From: a virus
Reading direction: 5' to 3' (one strand)
DNA length: 51,178 nucleotides
Virus record (IMG/VR): IMGVR_UViG_3300035698_019976
Coordinates: 1 to 51,178 of that record
A program made the translations under genes and the position numbers. This document shows, piece by piece, positions 6,175 through 51,178 of the stretch (its first letter is position 1; each line of letters begins with the position of its first letter). The notes beneath the pieces are model-generated. The model worked only from the letters and a program-made list of their open reading frames with translations. It did not search any database and was not told the origin of the DNA.

Positions 6175-9100
6175 CTATCGCCCCGCAATCCCAACCGGGG
6201 GCCGTCGCACGGCGCTCTGCTGAGCAGCGCTCCGGACCTCTGCCGCGACGGAGCGCGTGGCCTCCGTGCCACGCGTAATGGCGCTGACTTCCCGCTCGCT
6301 TGTCCCCACGGCGACATCGATCAGCCGCTCAATCTGACTCTCCATTATGGCGAGTCGTACCGTGAGCTGACGGTTCACTTCCTTCAGCTCTGCCACCGTC
6401 GTCTCGAGTGCCACCTGAACGGGACTTGGGCCGGTAGGATTCCCTGCCGACGTACCGGTGCTGCTGATGCCGTCCGTCGCCCCACCCGTGAGCGGATCCT
6501 CTAGCTTGCGCTGGGCCAAGGCAAAATACGTCGTGGACTGATCGGCGTAGGATTTGAACAGGTCATAGAACTCATTTTCCCGCAGGCGCGTTTGCAGCTT
6601 TGCGTTCTCATCCGCAATCAGTTGCTCAATCTGGCGCTGGGCCGTCTCAAGGATGACCTGCTTGGTCTCTTCCAACTTCGCAATCGTTGCCTCTGCCTCC
6701 TCGCTCACCTTATCCCGCTGACGCTCTAGGGCATCGATGAGGGCCTTGGTCGCTTCGGCATCTTGGGCCTTTAGCTCTTCCAACTTTGCAATCTGGAGCG
6801 CGCTCTGCTCCGCCACGGCCTCCTTCTGCCGCTGAAGGGATTCAATCGTGCGCTCCGTTTTTTCGAGTTGTTCGCGTGCGGTGGCGAGTTGTTCCTGATC
6901 AATGGGCAACGTCGCGCCAAACTGCGTCGTGATGGCGCTGATGACTTGATTGACGCGATTAAAGTCTGCCGCAAAATCTGTATTGCTCGCATTAAAGGCG
7001 CGTGACGCTTGGAGGAGGGCATTGGCAGCGGCAGGAAGTTCCGTGGCTGCTCCCGCGTCGCCCCCGGAGGCGCTACTTGCGAGGGTTTCAAACTGACGCC
7101 GTGCTTCGGCCAACTTCTCTTCCGGCGAGAGCGTGGACAAGTCCCCTAGCTGAAGGGAGTCGGTAAACTTGGTCAGGGCCTCTACCACTTGGACGCTAGT
7201 TTGGACTTGTTTTTCGAGCGCCGTCAGCTGGGCCTTCTGGATGTCAAGGCCGCTCCGTGCGGCCGCAATCTGTGCGTCAATGGCATCGGTGCGCGCCTTG
7301 GACTCCTCGCGCGCGGCAGCGATCTGATTATCAAAGCCCTTCTGCGACACGGCCCCTGCCGCGCGCACTTCCTCAATCTGTCCGTTGATGAGGGCGATCT
7401 GTTGCTTGGCAGCGGAGCGTGTGACTTCAATCAACACATCCAGATCAGCCATCTGGGCCGCTGCCGCATCATTGATGGCCTTTGTCCCATCCTCAATCGC
7501 GCGACGCGTTAGCACGGCCTCTCGCTCGCTAAACTGCACGAACTGGAGCAGGGCAAGATTGGTAGGCGAGAAGCCACTTTTGATCGCATCGGCCAGCTCT
7601 TGGCGCTGTCCGGCATTCTGGCTCGCATCCTCCGCCGCGCGCGTGTTTCCGCTGGCCGTAAGGCCGCGAACGGTTAACCCTTCGGTGGTGCGCCGATCCT
7701 CTTCTACGCGTGCTGCAGCGCGTGCTGCAAGCACCGCCGCGTTGTAGAGCGAGAGGGCTGCTAGCTCCGCAACCGTTGCCCCAGCCGCAATCGCATCAAA
7801 GATCCGGTTATTGGCGTCCTCAATATCACGCGCTGCCGAGGCACCGCGCGGATCTGAAAAGTTTTGCGTCTCATTTGCCAGATCAAACAGCGCCCTCCGC
7901 TGTCCCTCTATCTTGGCCGTGGCGAGGGCTGCCGCGTCTGCCGCAAAGCGCTGCGATTCTGCCAGCTGCGTTTGTGCGAGGGCCGCGAGCGTCGCCGTGT
8001 CGGCCCCGTTCTTTTGCGCTTCCGCAAGCTCGCGCACTTGCGCGTCGGCAAACGCTACCGCCGTCGCCTCCGCATCAAGCCCCTTTGCCCGTAGCTCGCG
8101 CACCTTTAGGTCCAGTTGAGAACGGCGCTGGCTTTCCGTAAACTCTTCCCGCAACTGCTTAATGCGAAGCGCTTCCAGCCGGTTAATCTCTGCCAAGGCC
8201 GTGGCGCGCCCTGCCTCTGCTTTCTTCCCGCTGAACTCGGAAATGGCCGACTCACGGAGCTGTTGAAACTCAGTGGCTGTTTTTTTAATCGCCGCATCAA
8301 GGCCCGATCCCTGCTCAATGCTTATCCGCATCGCATCGAGCGTGATGTTAAAGCGCTTCTGTGACGCGGCTGCCGCTTCAGCAGATTTTTTTGCCGCATT
8401 GGCAGAGCCCAGTAATCCTGCCAAGCCGCCGACGATGCCGCCCACGACCGCTCCCACCACATTCCCTACCCCCGGCACCACCGTCCCAAAGGCCGCTCCC
8501 GTGGCGGCACCTGCCGCAAAGCCCAGCCCACGGTTTGTCGTCCGCGATCCTACGCCAAACCCAATCGCTGCCGCTCCCACGCCCAGCCCTGCTGCGCCGG
8601 CAAGCGTCGTGGCACCGGGACTGCCAAAGTTTGCATTCGCCACATTCCGTGGGTCAAACTGCGCGCCCGGAATAAGGGCGCCAAGCGACGTAGTGAGTCG
8701 CTTAAAAACATTGGCCGCGAGCAGATCGGCAAACATTTTGATGAATAAATCTTTGATCGAGTTGGTAAAGCTGTTAAAGGATTGGAAGCCGTTCTTGAGC
8801 ACGCCCTCAAAGCCGCTCGACACGGTTTGGAGGAACTGTAGCTCAAAGTTTTTAGCTTGCTGCGTCTGATCCTCCAAAATCTTTTTCGCTCGCGTGTTGA
8901 TCTCCTCTTGCCGTTCCTTTCGCTTCGCAAGGGCATCGTTAACGGCGATGGTCTCCATCTTCAACTGTGCTTCAAGATTGATCGCTTTGATGCGTTCCGA
9001 CAGCTCACGATCGCGCAGCGTAAGGCGTGCCTCCGCAATGTCCAGTCCTGCCTCCAGATCCACCCGTGCCTCAGCCAGCGCGCGTCCCTCTAGGGTGGCC

Positions 9101-42971: not shown

Positions 42972-43206
42972 GACGCTGTATAGCCAGCGGTTGGAGCGTC
43001 TCAAGACGCTCACCGCGATGCTCCGCCTGACGGATGCGTTAGTGGAGGCCTTTGAGTCGGTGGGGGAACGGAAGGCCGCAGGAGCGGTGCGTTGGGGGGT
43101 GATGTTGGAACGGCAGGAAGCGCGTATGCTCGCGCTGCAGTTAGGAACGCTGAAGGGGGCCACGCTGGCCCAAATCACTGCCTTGGGAGGACGGAACCAT
43201 GCGTAA
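42964..43206 (+). CDS. Small helical hypothetical protein
   Basis: An 80-residue, almost fully helical and basic protein (LERLKTLTAMLRLTDALVEA; AVRWGVMLERQEARMLALQL). It overlaps both neighbours by 8 bases, so it is translated as part of the operon with the DUF932 gene. It may be a small DNA-binding or adaptor protein; nothing more can be said. Confidence 0.65.
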   Translation: MSETLYSQRLERLKTLTAMLRLTDALVEAFESVGERKAAGAVRWGVMLERQEARMLALQLGTLKGATLAQITALGGRNHA

Positions 43207-44275
43207 CGTACACACCGCCGGAAACGATCAGTGGATCAAGCGCCCTGCTGATGAACGCTTTAACTCATTGGAGGCGCTTCATGCCGCCACGACCCACCAT
43301 AAGGCCGTCGCCGTAGAAGCGGTAAACGTGGACCTGTCGCGTCTCCGGGTTGAGCTGCGGGGGACGGATCCCGTGCTGATCGGGGAGAGTGGGAAGGAAG
43401 CCCGATTCACCCATCACGGCTTCAAGCAACTCGCAGCGCGCGTCGGCGCACCGGCAGCGTATCTGCGCACGCTACCGGGAGAGCTGATGGTGGCCAATAT
43501 GAACTCCGGCCTATCGCGTGCGAGTGCGCCGGATGATGCGCTGCTGTTTGCGAAGAATGGCGAGCTGCGTCTGCGGGCAGCCTTCTCCTCTTCCTATCGT
43601 CGGATCTGGAATGCCGATATCACGAGTCGCCTCTTGGCGATGACGGCGATGGCCCCCGAGTGGCAACCGGCCCCTCCGGCGTTTGATGGCTCGCGGGGGC
43701 TGTATGCGAGCGATGAGGACATGTTTGCGTTCCTTGTCGATAATGACCGGCGCATATTTGAGTCCGGGCCCGAAGGGGGCCTGTCGCGCGGCTTCATGAT
43801 CAGTAACTCGGAAGTGGGCACGGGGGCCTTTACCATTACCACGTTCTTCTATGAGTTTGTGTGCGGCAACCATCGCGTCTGGGGCGCTTCGGGCCAGAAG
43901 GAGTTACGCGTGCGCCATGTGGGGGCTGCCGATGAACGGGCCTTTGATGAGCTGTCGGTAGAACTCCTTCAGTATGCGGAGGGAAGCGCAAAGGAGGATG
44001 AGGCGCGCATCGAGCGTGCTCACCTGAAGGTGTTGGGCGGAACAAAGGATGAAGTGCTGGACATGATCTTCGGCCTTCGCATCAACGGCCTCCCCCGCAA
44101 GACGATTGAGGCGTCTTATGCGCTGGCAGAATCGCATGAGTCGTGGTACGGGAACCCGCGCAGCGTGTGGGGGTTGACGGGAGGGATGACCCAGTTGGCG
44201 CGCGATCTTCCCAATGCGAGTGATCGGTGGGCATTGGAGCGCGCGTCGAGTAAGGTGCTCGCGCTCGCTGTATAA
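43199..44275 (+). CDS. DUF932 (phage/plasmid-like) protein
   Basis: A 358-residue protein of the DUF932 family (phage/plasmid-like protein, TIGR03299 type). Visible features are LIGESGKEARFTHHGFKQLA near residue 60, LRAAFSSSYRRIWNADITSR near 125, SRGFMISNSEVGTGAFTITT near 200 followed by FFYEFVCGNHRVWG, and a helical C terminus (DRWALERASSKVLALAV). The family is widespread on phages and plasmids; its role is not established, and ssDNA or replication related functions have been suggested. The gene is followed by a hairpin. Confidence 0.85.
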   Translation: MRNVHTAGNDQWIKRPADERFNSLEALHAATTHHKAVAVEAVNVDLSRLRVELRGTDPVLIGESGKEARFTHHGFKQLAARVGAPAAYLRTLPGELMVANMNSGLSRASAPDDALLFAKNGELRLRAAFSSSYRRIWNADITSRLLAMTAMAPEWQPAPPAFDGSRGLYASDEDMFAFLVDNDRRIFESGPEGGLSRGFMISNSEVGTGAFTITTFFYEFVCGNHRVWGASGQKELRVRHVGAADERAFDELSVELLQYAEGSAKEDEARIERAHLKVLGGTKDEVLDMIFGLRINGLPRKTIEASYALAESHESWYGNPRSVWGLTGGMTQLARDLPNASDRWALERASSKVLALAV

Positions 44276-45829: not shown

Positions 45830-46364
45830 TGACCGACTCGATGCCCATATCACCCCCGATCAAGAAGCCATCGTGCTCCTCGCCCACGCCCTCTGCCTCA
45901 GCGAGCGGAAGCGGAGCGTGTGGCAGAAAACGGCAGAGATGGAAGGCGAGCGCGCGGATCACAACACGCGCAAGTTCAGCGAGACGGGAACCCCCCTAGA
46001 GGGCGAGGAGGCATGGAAGGCCCGTATCCTAGAGTTGGAGGCACAGCTTAACGCGCGACCAGCCCTGACGCGGGAGCCGGAGAGCGAGCCATTGCAGAAT
46101 ATGCGCCAGTGGGCACGGGACACCAATGCGACGCGTGCCTATGTCGGCACCAAGACGCTTCGCGAGATGTTCGCCCTGATTGATGCGCCCCTCACGCTAC
46201 GCGAACATGTAGAGGCGCTGGTGGGGATGGGCGCAGTGGAGCAGACATGGCATGGGGTGAAAGCATTCCTGACCGACACCGGTGTGTCGATAACGGAGGA
46301 GGAGGAACGGCAAACGGTTCACCAAACGCTCCTCCTCATCCTCCCTGCCCCCTCACTCCCCTAG
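45822..46364 (+). CDS. Hypothetical protein, last gene of the early arm
   Basis: A 180-residue protein from ATG 45822, preceded by GGAGA. The first 100 residues are charged and helical, with coiled-coil character (EEAWKARILELEAQLNARPA). The second part (TKTLREMFALIDAPLTLREH) looks like a small helical domain, and the end is hydrophobic (TVHQTLLLILPAPSLP). Function unknown. Its 3' end overlaps the 3' end of the convergent endolysin gene by 12 bases, so the two arms meet here with no spacer and no visible terminator. Confidence 0.65.
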   Translation: MYSDRLDAHITPDQEAIVLLAHALCLSERKRSVWQKTAEMEGERADHNTRKFSETGTPLEGEEAWKARILELEAQLNARPALTREPESEPLQNMRQWARDTNATRAYVGTKTLREMFALIDAPLTLREHVEALVGMGAVEQTWHGVKAFLTDTGVSITEEEERQTVHQTLLLILPAPSLP

Positions 46365-46856
46365 CCACCAATACGCATAGACGTAGGCAGCGCCCCGCTT
46401 CCGGGCACGACTAGAGGTGACGAGACGCTCAAACACCCCCCATCCTTCCCGCGTTGGGGGGTGAGAGGGATCGGACGCATTGCCCTCAATCGTCCCAAAG
46501 GTCAGCGGCGTGATGCCTTCCGTGACAAAGCCCACATGGATCGCATCATGCTTCGCCCGCAAGAGGAAGAACAGCGCGCCGGGAGCCGGATCGTCTCGCA
46601 GCATGCCTTTCGCGCGCGCCTCTTCCAACATCAGATCACAGCTGGCCGTGTACTTGAGGGGCGGCTTATTGTCGTGCCACAGGCCAAGAATGAACCCCGT
46701 AAAGCACGCACACCACGGCTGGCCCGGCACGGTGCCCCCGATGCGTTGGATGCCCTCTACCCAACGGCCAAGATTTTTATTGCCCGGTGCTTCTCGCACG
46801 AACAGAAACTGACGCGCGCGTGCCAAGACCATCGCTGCTGCTCTATTCTCCGTCAT
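46353..46856 (-). CDS. Endolysin, CHAP cysteine peptidase/amidase
   Basis: A 167-residue CHAP-domain enzyme that cuts peptidoglycan at lysis. The catalytic Cys lies in PGQPWCACFTGFILGLW (Cys49 or Cys51), the His in AKHDAIHVGFVTEGI and the Asn/Glu in FGTIEGNAS. The start ATG 46856 overlaps the holin-like gene by 14 bases; the longer frame to 46895 lacks support. There is no signal peptide, so it needs a holin. There is no separate wall-binding domain. It is the last gene of the late arm. Confidence 0.85.
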   Translation of the reverse strand: MTENRAAAMVLARARQFLFVREAPGNKNLGRWVEGIQRIGGTVPGQPWCACFTGFILGLWHDNKPPLKYTASCDLMLEEARAKGMLRDDPAPGALFFLLRAKHDAIHVGFVTEGITPLTFGTIEGNASDPSHPPTREGWGVFERLVTSSRARKRGAAYVYAYWWLGE

Positions 46857-47250
46857 TATACGGAGCCGGAACGTGTCCAGAGGGCTGTATCCCAAGGTCC
46901 ACCTCTCGTGCGGGAGCGGGACGCTTGATGGCGTCGATGATGCTTTCGATTGATCCGCTGACGTTGAGGCTATCGGCCTGATTGCTTATGTCTTGGCGCG
47001 ATCCGGCAGCCCCAAGATACCCCTTCAGCCCAAAGCCTGCCCCCAGCACCCCAAACCCAAACGCCCAGACAGAGGCCGGGGGAATCATTTGCAAATAAAA
47101 GAGACTCCCCGCCACCGTCCCCACAAATACCCAAAGGGCCGTGAAGGTGACCATCTTGTTAAAGCTGAGTTCCCCGGTTCCGTTGCCAAAGCCCGTGTAC
47201 TCAATCCACGCCTTAGGCAGACTCTCTATCTGGATAGGACTCGATGTCAT
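46843..47250 (-). CDS. Holin-like membrane protein
   Basis: A 135-residue membrane protein next to the endolysin. Two TM helices are visible, MVTFTALWVFVGTVAGSLFY (about 33-52) and SVWAFGFGVLGAGFGLKGYL (about 60-79), followed by a polar C-terminal tail (GSIESIIDAIKRPAPAREVD). Size, topology and place beside the endolysin fit a class II-like holin. It overlaps the PAS-domain gene upstream by 38 bases and the endolysin gene downstream. An alternative is a non-holin membrane anchor protein. Confidence 0.65.
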   Translation of the reverse strand: MTSSPIQIESLPKAWIEYTGFGNGTGELSFNKMVTFTALWVFVGTVAGSLFYLQMIPPASVWAFGFGVLGAGFGLKGYLGAAGSRQDISNQADSLNVSGSIESIIDAIKRPAPAREVDLGIQPSGHVPAPYNDGE

Positions 47251-47926
47251 AATGATGGCCGGTGGTAAGAAGGGAAAGGGCCTTGGACATGGGCGTTACG
47301 CGCGGATGGATAATGGCGACCCATCCCACCACCGCCCCAAGGTAGTTCATGACTGGCGTACTCAGGTGCTCCACAAACGCCCGATCCCCCGTGAGGACGT
47401 TTTGTGCAATGTACGTCGTGCTGAGCACCGTCTTGCTCGCACGCGCAGCGGACGACAACTGGGCCACCCGGTCCCGATCCTCCGGTGCCACTGCCCGTAT
47501 CCATCCCCCATCCATCGTCTCTTCTCGCGTCAGCCCCGTCAGCCGCACATAGGCCGGAGAGGCAAAGCTTACCTCTATCTCGCGTCCATTGCGCAGGATC
47601 ACCTCATAGCTCGCCACATTATGGACAAGGCGACGCGCGGTGCGCTCGATGGCGTGCTCATTGCGAATCTCCATCACCACGTCCCGTAGCGATCCGCCCC
47701 CATTGGCTTTTAGCTCATGCTGAATATCGGCCAGCAATGGGCCCATTGAGGTAACGGTTGTCGCGAGATGATCAAGCTTATCCGTCTTGCTGTCCTCATT
47801 TTCCCGATACTCCGCAATCCGACTTCGGTTGTACTGGTAATACTTCCACACCCCTGCGACAAACGCGACAAGCGCTGCCGTAACAGCGGTGATGATCTTG
47901 GCAGTGCCGTCCAGATCAAACAACAC
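47213..47926 (-). CDS. Membrane-anchored PAS-domain protein in the lysis block
   Basis: A 237-residue protein starting with GTG 47926. Residues about 10-28 form a TM helix (IITAVTAALVAFVAGVWKYY). A coiled linker follows (RSRIAEYRENEDSKTDKLDH). Residues about 100-205 look like a PAS sensor domain: SFASPAYVRLTGLTREETMD, then WIRAVAPEDRDRVAQL and YLGAVVGWVAIIHP. No kinase, cyclase or HTH output follows. PAS domains sense small ligands, redox state or oxygen, or mediate dimerisation. The gene lies directly before the holin-like gene and overlaps it by 38 bases, so it may tune lysis; this is inference. Confidence 0.75.
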   Translation of the reverse strand: MLFDLDGTAKIITAVTAALVAFVAGVWKYYQYNRSRIAEYRENEDSKTDKLDHLATTVTSMGPLLADIQHELKANGGGSLRDVVMEIRNEHAIERTARRLVHNVASYEVILRNGREIEVSFASPAYVRLTGLTREETMDGGWIRAVAPEDRDRVAQLSSAARASKTVLSTTYIAQNVLTGDRAFVEHLSTPVMNYLGAVVGWVAIIHPRVTPMSKALSLLTTGHHYDIESYPDRESA

Positions 47927-48269
47927 CTACCGCCACCACCAACGCATCTTCATACATCAACTCAACGGCGACACGAATATCTCCCGGAAACGTCACAATA
48001 CACCATGGCGTTTCCATCGCAAAGAGCGTCGCCAGTAGCGTGGACGTGAGCAGCGTCGCATCAAACCGCACCAAGAACCTTCCCGGCTTCCCGGTATACA
48101 GCGGCGCCACCACCAGCGTCGCATCCGCTGCCGTGGCCGTGCTGGCATTACTTGTCGCGAGGAAGGCCGTGCCCGTCGCATTTGCGGCGAGTGGTGTCGA
48201 GCTGCCACCGTCGTCCGTGACTTTAATTGTCACCAAGAAGGCCAGATCATTCAAAGGATTCAGCTTCAT
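47916..48269 (-). CDS. Putative virion structural protein
   Basis: A 117-residue beta-rich protein (DLAFLVTIKVTDDGGSSTPL, then AFLATSNASTATAADATLVV and GKPGRFLVRFDATLLT). The Ala/Thr/Ser-rich composition and Ig-like strand pattern suggest a small virion decoration or fibre-associated protein. It overlaps the gene upstream as ATGA and the PAS-domain gene downstream. No family is recognised. Confidence 0.6.
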   Translation of the reverse strand: MKLNPLNDLAFLVTIKVTDDGGSSTPLAANATGTAFLATSNASTATAADATLVVAPLYTGKPGRFLVRFDATLLTSTLLATLFAMETPWCIVTFPGDIRVAVELMYEDALVVAVGVV

Positions 48270-49195
48270 GGAAGCACCTGTTGGAGACGTACCACCGCTG
48301 CCCCGTCACGCAGCCTGACTGTCGGACCCACTCCGCGCACCGTTACCACGGACCCTCTCGCGACCAGCGTCACGCGCGCCCCTCGATCAATAATCCCCGT
48401 CACCGCCGCATATCGGGGTGCGCCGAGAAAGAGCAGCGCACCGGGGACCATCGACACTCCTACCCCATCGAGCGTTATTTGCCGAACTAGCGCAACGTGA
48501 AGCGATCGCGTGGGTGAGGTAATATCGGTTGACGTTCGGGCAAACGCGACGGTTCGCTGAAGCCCAATCCTGAGATCCGTCCCCGTGCCGAAGGAAAGGG
48601 GCGCTGTCGCGAGTCCGAACGGCACCTGTCGCGTTGCGCGAAGGGGGCCGGAGACGATAGAAACTGCGGCCCCGAGTCCTAGGGTGGTCTGACGCGTTAT
48701 GCGGCCTTCTAGGGGCTGCGACGCACCGAGAGCGACGGTGGCACCGGTGAGGCGAAAGGTCGCGACCGGCTGCAGCCCCAAGCTCCCGCCCGTTATTTCA
48801 ATAGGCTCGGAGGTCAGGCGAAGCGCTAGGATCGTTTTTAAGCTGAGATCGGCCGCAGAGGCAAGTCCTAGTATGCCCCGGCCCAAGATCGCGCGACGCT
48901 GGGCCGGTAGCGCGAGCGGAGCAGGGCTGCTAACGGGGAGCGTCCCCGCGTCTAGCGTTCCGGCCAGATTTAGGGCCAGCGAGAGCCCGGAAGGGCTAGA
49001 GAGGGGAAGGGCGAGCGGAACTAGCCCCCCTGCCCGACTCAGGGCCAGCGAGAGCCCGGAAGGGCTAGAGAGGGGAAGGGGGCCGGAGGTAAACGCAATA
49101 TTGTAAACTTCCGGCGATGGGGTAGGGCCCCCGGCCCCGATGCCCAGCAGAGGAAGCTGAGCATTGTAGGCGGCAAATACTCCCGGCTGCGGCAT
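48266..49195 (-). CDS. Repeat-containing Leu/Ala/Gly-rich virion-type protein
   Basis: A 309-residue protein, low in charge and rich in Leu, Ala, Gly, Ser and Pro. It carries repeats of about 23 residues near its N terminus: PLPLSSPSGLSLALSRAGGL, then ALPLSSPSGLSLALNLAGTL, then a weaker LPVSSPAPLALPAQRRAI. Further beta-strand-like repeats follow (SLGLQPVATFRLTGATVALG; TDLRIGLQRTVAFARTST), and the C terminus is basic. It may be a beta-helical or fibrous virion component; it shares stop/start overlap with the small gene downstream. No enzymatic motif is seen. Confidence 0.6.
   Translation of the reverse strand: MPQPGVFAAYNAQLPLLGIGAGGPTPSPEVYNIAFTSGPLPLSSPSGLSLALSRAGGLVPLALPLSSPSGLSLALNLAGTLDAGTLPVSSPAPLALPAQRRAILGRGILGLASAADLSLKTILALRLTSEPIEITGGSLGLQPVATFRLTGATVALGASQPLEGRITRQTTLGLGAAVSIVSGPLRATRQVPFGLATAPLSFGTGTDLRIGLQRTVAFARTSTDITSPTRSLHVALVRQITLDGVGVSMVPGALLFLGAPRYAAVTGIIDRGARVTLVARGSVVTVRGVGPTVRLRDGAAVVRLQQVLP
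48972..49080. repeat. 40-bp perfect direct repeat, 69-bp period
   Basis: Two identical 40-base copies (48972-49011 and 49041-49080) lie 69 bases apart inside the repeat-containing virion gene. The period is a multiple of three and encodes the 23-residue repeat with PLSSPSGLSLAL. Identity at the DNA level indicates recent duplication or gene conversion. Confidence 0.92.
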
Positions 49196-49201
49196 GAGGG
49201 G

Positions 49202-49495
49202 TTAGCCGTCCACGCGCTCAATCGACCACGGCACTGCCCGTCCCGTTCCCCCTTCCTGACGGATGCCGAAGGTGCCGTCAATCCCCTCCGGCAACCGCAG
49301 CAGAAGCGATTCACTGATGGCCCATGAGGTGGCCCCCATGGCGACGATCCCGCGCCATAGGATCCGCTGCGTGCCCCCGGCCACAATCTCGCGCTGGACG
49401 TAGGCGCTTAACCGCTCCGTGCCGACCAGGGCCGAGGTGTCGAGCACCAATGCGTAAACGGCCCCACCCGCAGGGCCGGTCAGGGCCGCCCCCAA
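49202..49495 (-). CDS. Small virion-type protein, start unclear, upstream in-frame TGA
   Basis: About 97 residues, read from a TTG at 49495 (LGAALTGPAGGAVYALVLDT). It looks beta-rich and tail-like (LLLRLPEGIDGTFGIRQEGG) and no family is recognised. No ATG or GTG lies in this frame after the previous stop. An ATG at 49555 opens the frame properly (MPTTITEA), but a TGA at 49531-49529 interrupts it; the codons between this TGA and 49495 (TQTCVLATDHN) look coding. So either a TTG start is used or the gene carries a nonsense change. Confidence 0.5.
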   Translation of the reverse strand: MGAALTGPAGGAVYALVLDTSALVGTERLSAYVQREIVAGGTQRILWRGIVAMGATSWAISESLLLRLPEGIDGTFGIRQEGGTGRAVPWSIERVDG

Positions 49496-49562: not shown

Positions 49563-50429
49563 TTAGCTCCACCCGTACAGGACGGGCCAAATGTTGGAGC
49601 CGCTAGAGGTGTTGATACCGTTGTACAGCTCCAGCAACACGCGCGTCGCGGCAGGAAGGTCGCAGGGATACGGACCAAACATCTTGACGTGCAGGGGGGC
49701 CGTTAGACCGGAGAATGACCCGAGGGGCCCGAACACCGATACGCCGTCTCCCGCTCCGCTGCGCAACCGCCACAGAAACATTCGCTGGTCACCGGAGGCG
49801 GATCCACTGTTGCCAAACGCTAGGGAGAACGCGCGCCAGTGACTGGCGATGGCGGCACTGAACTGAAATATATTGCCTCCGTCATTCGGTGCGGCGCTGA
49901 AGGGGCTGCTCGTGCTGACGCCCGCCGCGTACGCCGTGTTGACGTTCGGCACGGTGCCGGAAAGGTTCAGAATCTCAACGCCACTAAATCCCGGTGCCGT
50001 GTAGGGCGTGACGGGAATCGGAATCATATGGACGTTGGTCCAATCCTCCTGTTCACGCCATGAGCATCTGGTGCGGATGCTGATGCGCGTTCCCTTGGGG
50101 ATAAACAGGGGGATCGTGTACGGTTCGTACATCACGTTGTTCAGGTTCGTAAAGCTCAGCAGGGGGATCCGGATAAACTCGACTTCAGACCCTGCTGCGC
50201 CAAGCGCGAGAGAGGCGTGTCCGGTAACGTTCATCCCCACCCGTTCCCGGAACTGGATAAGGAGGGCGCTCGCGTCCCACTCCGTCTCGGCAATAACCTC
50301 AACGTACGCACTGTAGACGTTGTTCGTCGTGTGGGGCAGGAGCGTGATTTGCCCATAGGAGTCAGCGGCGTGCTTGGTGCCGTAATAAGTGCCAAGGTTA
50401 ATGCCTTGTGCGAGGGGCCACGTACTCAT
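49563..50429 (-). CDS. Putative tail appendage / virion structural protein
   Basis: A 288-residue protein from ATG 50429 (MSTWPLAQGINLGTYYGTKH), 10 bases after the sigma factor stop. It is beta-rich and rich in Ser/Gly/Asn/Tyr, in two similar halves (RIPLLSFTNLNNVMYEPYTI; VKMFGPYPCDLPAATRVLLE). This symmetry suggests a jelly-roll or galactose-binding-like fold. With its neighbours it probably belongs to the virion surface. No catalytic residues are evident. Confidence 0.6.
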   Translation of the reverse strand: MSTWPLAQGINLGTYYGTKHAADSYGQITLLPHTTNNVYSAYVEVIAETEWDASALLIQFRERVGMNVTGHASLALGAAGSEVEFIRIPLLSFTNLNNVMYEPYTIPLFIPKGTRISIRTRCSWREQEDWTNVHMIPIPVTPYTAPGFSGVEILNLSGTVPNVNTAYAAGVSTSSPFSAAPNDGGNIFQFSAAIASHWRAFSLAFGNSGSASGDQRMFLWRLRSGAGDGVSVFGPLGSFSGLTAPLHVKMFGPYPCDLPAATRVLLELYNGINTSSGSNIWPVLYGWS

Positions 50430-50439
50430 AGCACTGTGC

Positions 50440-51003
50440 TCATCGTTGGAGGAGGGACGCGATATCAAACCGCACATCATTCTGAAGGATTACCGCCAGC
50501 GCACGCCGTCCCCGCATGGCGCGCATCTTAACGCTAGCAGGATGGATAGAGAGGTTTCGCCCGCACGTCACGCTATCGAGTCCAACATAGTGATACAGCC
50601 ACACCGCGCGCCGTTCCTTCTCGCTGAGCTTCCTCAGCGCCTCCCGCAACGCGATGCGCGAGGAGTCGGCCATGATCGTCGTTACCGCGTCCGGGACCGC
50701 ATCCGCGTGGGCAGTGCGCACCGTCTCCCCCGCATCAAAGACGCGCATCCGCGTGGTGCACTTGCGCGTCAGACTAATCATTTGATTTATGGCCACACGG
50801 TACAGCCAAGCATCGAGATTGTTGAGGGAGGGATTGCCCTGCTGCGCCTTGAGGATCGCATCCCCCACCGCATCCTCACAGCATCCCTCCGTCACGCCTT
50901 TTGACCCATAGAAACGGCGCCAGAGCAGGCGCACAAGCACGCGCCGACGTTCCCTTGTGAACGCCAGCAAGAGCACGCGCGCATCTTCAGCTACTGCGTT
51001 CAC
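50440..51003 (-). CDS. ECF-type RNA polymerase sigma factor
   Basis: About 187 residues with both sigma-70 core regions. Region 2: CCEDAVGDAILKAQQG, then NLDAWLYRVAINQMISLTRK, equivalent to the conserved AWLxxIAxNxxxDxxR helix. Region 4: LREALRKLSEKERRAVWLYH, then LDSVTCGRNLSIHPASVKMR and AMRGRRALAV, a HTH that would bind the -35 element. There is no region 3, as in ECF factors. I choose the GTG at 51003, which has GGGGAG about 9 bases upstream and overlaps the previous stop by 17 bases; a GTG at 51042 would add 13 residues. It may redirect host RNA polymerase to phage promoters. Confidence 0.8.
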   Translation of the reverse strand: MNAVAEDARVLLLAFTRERRRVLVRLLWRRFYGSKGVTEGCCEDAVGDAILKAQQGNPSLNNLDAWLYRVAINQMISLTRKCTTRMRVFDAGETVRTAHADAVPDAVTTIMADSSRIALREALRKLSEKERRAVWLYHYVGLDSVTCGRNLSIHPASVKMRAMRGRRALAVILQNDVRFDIASLLQR

Positions 51004-51178
51004 TCGCGTATGCTCCCCGCACGCCCTCACACAGCGTATCACTTCCGCCCAGTATCACCACCCTGTTCGTGTAGCGATTCCGTGCCACAAGACACAGCTG
51101 TGCCACGGCACCAACCGCCATCGGAACGGGAGGCGCGAGGGTGAGGCGACGATCCCCCACAGGGAAGGAATCCTCCAC
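50987..51178 (-). CDS. Membrane-anchored protein, C-terminal part (cut by window edge)
   Basis: C-terminal 61-63 residues of a gene that enters from the right edge, probably the continuation of the gene at 1-475. It reads EDSFPVGDRRLTLAPPVPMA, then VAQLCLVARNRYTNRVVILG and ends ASERSS. The 7-base identity between the two window ends keeps the frame when they are overlapped; simple end-to-end joining would break it. It overlaps the start of the sigma factor gene. Confidence 0.65.
   Translation of the reverse strand: MEDSFPVGDRRLTLAPPVPMAVGAVAQLCLVARNRYTNRVVILGGSDTLCEGVRGAYASERSS

Follow-up and report, generated by a model that had tools for sequence, protein, structure and literature searches.

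A PAS domain on a predicted N-out/C-in membrane protein of a phage lysis cassette: a candidate holin-class member of a widespread phage family

Introduction

PAS domains serve widely as sensing modules in bacteria; what is the function of one in the lysis cassette of a phage? The time of lysis is thought to be set mainly by the sequence and amount of the holin, and few signal inputs to it are known, namely lysis inhibition in T4 and collapse of the proton motive force. The question is raised by a virus record from IMG/VR (51,178 bases, analyzed over its whole length and referred to here as the window), in which genes for terminase, portal, major head and tape-measure proteins are located on the minus strand. 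In a preliminary description of this DNA, a protein composed of a transmembrane (TM) segment, a coiled coil and a PAS domain was presented as a sensor encoded immediately before, and overlapping, a holin-like gene that is followed by a CHAP endolysin gene.

Results

Organization of the lysis cassette

The three ORFs specifying the PAS protein, the 2-TM protein and the CHAP endolysin were confirmed on the minus strand at the positions previously assigned to them, the PAS gene (47213-47926) being directly followed by the 2-TM gene and then by the endolysin gene (Table 1). When first starts are assumed, the PAS and 2-TM genes overlap by 38 nt (47213-47250), while the 2-TM gene and the CHAP ORF overlap by 53 nt, or by 11 nt if the endolysin starts at the ATG at 46853. 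In two related contigs, L003 and L004, the PAS gene also immediately precedes the 2-TM gene, but the genes do not overlap there and are separated by approximately 15 nt; the adjacency noted in the preliminary description is thus retained, whereas the overlap is a property of the window and not a conserved feature.

Promoter and terminator signals in the conserved block to which the cassette belongs did not exceed the level expected from shuffled sequence. The fiber-lysis block of the window is headed by a gene for a sigma-70-like protein (50440-51042, minus strand; Sigma70_r4_2, 1.4e-8), which may be a phage-encoded sigma factor directing late or lysis gene transcription; a homolog precedes the block in L004 (about 2164-2811), and another sigma-like gene (L002:4929-5594) is located directly ahead of the TM-coil gene of a third contig, L002. 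No family match was obtained for the repeat-rich protein of the window (48266-49195, minus strand) or for that of L004 (4040-4936), the repeat units of the latter being near-identical (e.g., ALALQGEALNFGRVAALALDSGTLAVAGEALNVAASRTLTLDSGT). On the opposite strand, the window encodes a DUF932-like protein (43199-44275, plus strand) which matches phrog_1362 (1.9e-27), a family of unknown function.

Table 1. Features of the lysis cassette and the adjoining conserved block of the window
Feature	Position	Strand	Basis
PAS-bearing 1-TM membrane protein, 237 aa, GTG start, in-frame TTG next	47213..47926	-	ORF, PF08447, AlphaFold2 model, 24-row family alignment
Transmembrane segment, residues 8-26, predicted N-out/C-in	47849..47905	-	Hydropathy, positive-inside rule
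NGGGSLRD hinge, residues 75-82, family signature	47681..47704	-	Invariant residues in 24 members; helix break in model
PAS domain, residues 105-208, predicted cytoplasmic, no cysteine	47303..47614	-	Pfam, AlphaFold2 model, structure comparison
2-TM holin-like protein, 135 aa	46843..47250	-	Hydropathy; homologs in L002, L003, L004
CHAP-like endolysin from internal ATG; longest ORF reaches 46895	46353..46853	-	phrog_9589, tblastn, invariant C/H/N
117-aa protein directly upstream, 11-nt overlap with PAS gene	47916..48269	-	46-47% identity in L003/L004, same place
Repeat-rich 309-aa protein of conserved block	48266..49195	-	ORF, block comparison
97-aa protein of conserved block	49202..49495	-	56-78% identical in L003 and L004
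305-aa protein, tail-fiber-like (weak), phrog_13229 E 0.07	49563..50480	-	First gene of block common to L003/L004

Domain architecture and topology of the PAS protein

The PAS fold anticipated for the 237-residue protein was recovered by domain search and structure prediction alike. Pfam PAS_3 (PF08447) matched residues 121 to 203 above its cut-off (2.2e-6; 28.3 bits against 25.6), and TIGR00229 (sensory_box) gave a match slightly below cut-off (1e-4). The AlphaFold2 model, which was built from a 24-row alignment (mean pLDDT 83.7, pTM 0.55), consists of a helix spanning residues 5 to 74, an NGG break, a second helix at residues 78 to 104 and a PAS fold at approximately residues 105 to 208, with block pLDDT values of 89 to 96 across residues 121 to 210. 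Structure comparison by VIA-align returned Z scores of 14.4 to 15.3 to solved LOV, EAG-channel and bacterial PAS domains, and Foldseek returned PAS matches in the 1e-6 range; the likeness to LOV and EAG/hERG domains is one of fold, and homology is not claimed. The TM segment, long helix and PAS domain of the preliminary description are accordingly all present.

As had also been described, no second, output domain was found in the PAS protein, by which a classical two-component or cyclase sensor is ruled out. Cysteine is absent from the whole protein, and the PAS domain therefore has no photoactive Cys, which excludes LOV-type photochemistry and, with it, a LOV photosensor. No ligand-binding signature was identified in the PAS domain; not all PAS domains carry a ligand or cofactor.

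The single TM segment (residues about 8 to 26, hydropathy 1.94) lies inside the continuous helix at residues 5 to 74 and is flanked by an acidic N side (net -2) and a basic C side (net +3), an arrangement that, under the positive-inside rule, predicts an external N-terminus with the remainder inside. The same N-out/C-in topology was predicted by this rule for all four PAS proteins tested (those of the window, L003, L004 and L007). The two helices are separated by the sequence NGGGSLRD, whose S-x-x-D pattern, coming after the helix break, resembles a helix N-capping box and suggests a fixed hinge.

The 2-TM protein and the endolysin

The 135-aa protein encoded by the second gene contains two TM segments by hydropathy and has homologs in L002 (54% identity), L003 (38%) and L004 (37%), while Pfam, phrog and further profile searches returned no family match; it is termed holin-like on the grounds of its hydropathy and position. 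The description of the third gene as a CHAP endolysin gene was upheld by a match of its product to phrog_9589 “endolysin” (5.6e-9), by resemblance to annotated Streptomyces phage endolysins (tblastn) and by the invariance of Cys48, His106 and Asn125 in the endolysin alignment, the Pfam CHAP match being weak (16.3 bits, below cut-off). No N-terminal TM, SAR or signal segment was seen by hydropathy in this endolysin.

Conservation of the cassette among distant relatives

When the PAS protein of the window was used as a query in protein searches, no relatives were retrieved from viral contigs or from 50,697 phage records, and the PAS proteins of L003 and L004 likewise retrieved none from the phage records; relatives were instead reached via the 2-TM protein, which brought in the three contigs L002, L003 and L004, and via the hinge motif. 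The three-gene order proved to be conserved, as PAS, 2-TM and CHAP proteins are encoded in identical order in L003 and L004, where they form part of a longer shared block encoding, in order, the fiber-like, 97-aa, repeat, 117-aa, PAS, 2-TM and CHAP proteins (similarity to the repeat protein was found in L004 only). The head proteins of this group are 56 to 60% identical and the portal proteins 47 to 51% identical to those of the window, and the three are therefore considered distant members of one phage group.

In comparisons of the window with L003 and L004, the best-conserved parts of the cassette are the hinge (53 to 68% identity across the three pairs) and the PAS domain (45 to 57%), the TM segment (15 to 34%), coil (25 to 31%), 2-TM protein (36%) and endolysin (27 to 29% identity to that of the window) being less conserved. 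It is therefore apparent that the PAS domain is under selection and is not a passenger. L002, which is linked to the window by its portal (43%) and 2-TM protein (54%), encodes a TM-coil protein without a PAS domain in the slot of the PAS protein, and no PAS-family match was found in this record, which is a fragment. An additional 148-aa protein is encoded in L002 between the 2-TM gene and the endolysin gene (6330-6776, plus strand; phrog_1128, 8e-14), which by eye resembles a papain-like (NlpC/P60-type) hydrolase.

These data bear on the proposition that the PAS domain senses nothing and is a structural or dimerization module which sets the oligomer size or the pairing of a holin-class protein. 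In its favor, members lacking PAS are numerous and are encoded at the same place in the cassette, L002 included, so that the core function does not require sensing; furthermore, the PAS domains of EAG-type potassium channels (EAG/hERG), which were recovered in the structure comparison, modulate gating of a membrane pore in cis, no ligand being known for them. A mere spacer would nevertheless not need the degree of conservation seen in the PAS domain (45 to 57%, against 27 to 29% for the endolysin), and we regard this explanation as rather doubtful.

A widespread family defined by the NGGxSxxD hinge

The motif NGGxSxxD is common to the PAS-bearing relatives. A scan of viral contigs for its GC-rich coding yielded at least 120 loci, at each of which the motif is in frame within an ORF, almost all with a predicted TM segment upstream. 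The majority of these loci encode proteins of 60 to 120 aa without a PAS domain. Among 63 sampled members, 60 matched phrog_9869, a family of unknown function, at an E value of 0.01 or better, and 18 matched phrog_15431, which is annotated as holin. The window protein has the TM segment followed by the hinge, as in the family, and matches phrog_9869 weakly (E 0.03, residues 67 to 90 only), whereas the PAS-bearing member of the contig L085 matches it at 7e-6; the putative membership of the window protein in this family is based on the hinge motif and on intermediate sequences.

After a further pattern directed at the PAS-bearing type had been added, at least about 25 such proteins, including those of the window and L238, were identified in all among the matches listed, near-identical sequences being counted once. 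Only N75, G76, G77, S79, D82 and the GW of the PAS domain (positions 141 and 142) are invariant in the 24-row alignment. When the DNA pattern was applied to bacterial genomes, one true member was obtained (L238, in an Acidobacteria MAG), and three other matches were dismissed as chance. The better reading of the window protein is, in our opinion, that it belongs to a widespread phage family of 1-TM, predicted N-out/C-in proteins about which little has been described (phrog_9869, overlapping phrog_15431), and represents the form of this family that carries PAS; no literature naming either phrog was found in open full text.

Genomic neighborhood of PAS-less and PAS-bearing members

PAS-less members adjoin lysis genes in three named phages, namely Streptomyces phage mu1/6 (in the order endolysin-holin-gp52), Arthrobacter phage Sonali (gp22-endolysin-holin) and Thermobifida phage P1312 (gp40-amidase), and gp52, gp22 and gp40 each match phrog_9869 as well as the holin phrog_15431. 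The phrog_9869 protein of P1312 (L132, KT021004.1 25530-25973) is annotated as “sensory protein kinase CreC,” which appears to be a misannotation, as the protein has 147 aa and no kinase was seen.

An endolysin gene was located at most two genes away in 16 of 46 dereplicated PAS-less loci, which are not fully independent of one another, against none of 178 distant genes, taken at a separation of at least five genes (Fisher p 2e-5). A small protein with at least two TM segments was encoded within the same distance in 10 of the 46 loci, against none among the distant genes. Because gene calling was crude and the search for endolysins relied on only 11 seeds plus motifs, these enrichment counts represent lower bounds. 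The exact order of 1-TM protein, 2-TM protein and endolysin, without PAS, was present in at least five loci (L062, L146, L117, L140 and L073, the endolysin of the last being recognized by an M15-like motif only). Because PAS-less members fill the same slot in these five loci, the PAS protein itself has the appearance of a holin-class protein, and the notion of a stand-alone sensor ahead of the holin is abandoned here.

Regarding the PAS-bearing loci, in many of which the flanks are incomplete, an endolysin or spanin gene was located at most three genes away in 10 of approximately 25 among the matches listed. These are the window, L003, L004, L057 (CHAP), L087 (M15 endolysin and holin), L201 and L223 (lysozyme), L238 (amidase), and L069 and L180 (spanins); by portal search, L007, L057, L180 and L223 are unrelated to the window phage. 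For about half of the PAS-bearing genes among the matches listed, no lysis gene was in view. PAS-bearing members are encoded between terminase and portal in L149 and L165, where no lysis gene was seen; in L085 (3445-4011, minus strand) the PAS gene is flanked by a tail gene on one side and the gene for the terminase small subunit on the other, the slot occupied by the holin gene in T7 and T7-like phages.

The members that lie away from lysis genes, for example between terminase and portal, would suit a host-takeover or signaling protein which titrates, for instance, a host histidine kinase or sigma regulator and resides in late operons by chance, and PAS domains do often mediate kinase contacts. 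Such a role is, however, considered unlikely given that the whole family, PAS-less members included, is enriched beside endolysins and 2-TM proteins, and that the order is kept in unrelated phages.

Discussion

Comparison with described lysis proteins

Membrane proteins with one TM segment and N-out/C-in topology are already known from lysis cassettes. LysF1b of the mycobacteriophages Girr and NormanBulbieJr is a 1-TM holin-like protein of this topology which pairs with the 2-TM protein LysF1a; its deletion impairs lysis or changes its timing, and in phages with LysF1b alone early triggering by cyanide is possible (PMC13056207). The window protein resembles LysF1b in its single TM segment, predicted topology, basic residues after the TM segment and helical cytoplasmic part, and a 2-TM partner gene is present in the cassettes of the window, L003 and L004, as it is for LysF1b. 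In contrast, LysF1b lacks a PAS domain, and in its cassette the 2-TM gene precedes the 1-TM gene, whereas the 1-TM gene comes first in the window. LysF1b, whose host is a mycolic-acid bacterium, belongs to DUF2746 (PF10874), and this profile had no match in 20 records, the window included, at an E value of 10; membership of DUF2746 is accordingly rejected, and the likeness is one of topology and position only. 1-TM N-out/C-in cassette proteins of 79 to 145 aa have likewise been reported from Gordonia phages (PMC9671378). The small phrog_9869/phrog_15431 proteins (60 to 150 aa) are further counterparts, such as mu1/6 gp52 and Sonali gp22, which have the TM segment, NGGxSxxD hinge, helix and lysis-cassette position of the window protein and differ from it in having no PAS domain.

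Releasin gp25 of phage Mu (DUF2730), a 1-TM N-out/C-in protein with a cytoplasmic tail which acts on a SAR endolysin (PMC9239132), is comparable to the window protein in size class and predicted topology and has no PAS domain. This comparison, together with the lysozymes neighboring the PAS-bearing genes of L201 and L223, which have a hydrophobic N-terminal segment as in SAR endolysins, would be in keeping with a releasin- or spanin-like accessory that aids the endolysin and is not a holin. The window endolysin is, however, cytoplasmic and lacks an N-terminal TM or SAR segment, which leaves a releasin without a target; spanins (Rz) have N-in/C-out topology with a periplasmic coil, the opposite of that predicted here, and a spanin is therefore rejected; and the Rz-like matches obtained were weak (E 0.05 to 0.19) and confined to the TM segment and coil. 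An accessory of this kind is thus quite improbable. The analogy with LysF1b and the Gordonia proteins, coupled with an endolysin that is not of the SAR type, favors taking the window protein as a putative holin-class component.

What would be new here is the PAS domain on such a lysis protein. The sensor-holin-endolysin arrangement had been put forward as undescribed, and no paper reporting a PAS domain in a lysis cassette was found in open full text, subscription papers and preprints lying outside that search. Signals that bear on lysis by other routes have been described. In T4, a signal alters the timing of holin T through protein contact with the antiholins RI and RIII (PMC11413866, PMC8385771); there the sensing step is periplasmic and falls to these separate antiholins, no PAS domain is known to take part, and the holin has the opposite topology. 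Vibriophage VP882 encodes a PAS sensor, VqmA, which bears on the lysis decision (PMC8284805), but VqmA is a cytoplasmic transcription factor of a temperate phage and not a membrane protein of the lysis cassette.

Proposed role of the PAS protein

We propose, with a probability of roughly one-half, that the window protein belongs to the holin class of lysis proteins and that triggering is modulated by its PAS domain in the cytoplasm; its holin-class function, its pairing with the 2-TM protein and its regulation by the PAS domain are what we infer from the evidence above. According to this model, the protein would be anchored by its one TM segment with the N-terminus outside and all else in the cytoplasm, the PAS domain replacing the short coil which PAS-less members have after the NGGxSxxD hinge. 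It would probably act with the 2-TM protein to trigger the membrane step, as LysF1b does with LysF1a, and this step would allow the cytoplasmic CHAP endolysin to reach the wall. The PAS domain probably acts in cis, via the hinge and coil, on the assembly of the TM segments, such that triggering would depend on the state of the PAS domain, be it a ligand, a cofactor, dimerization or a host partner. The more specific version of this model is a signal-gated holin, present in many unrelated phages, in which a built-in PAS sensor on the cytoplasmic side would monitor host metabolism or redox state and the lysis time would be set directly at the membrane; it is put forward tentatively and is considered less likely than not.

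A phage protein family that is very common but has no name is hereby given a likely role, and its PAS-bearing and PAS-less members offer a natural comparison for gating. If the PAS domain does gate lysis, the state of the host would be a direct input to lysis time, and by placing a PAS domain on the inner side of a protein of the lysis-cassette type a phage may tune the time at which its host bursts.
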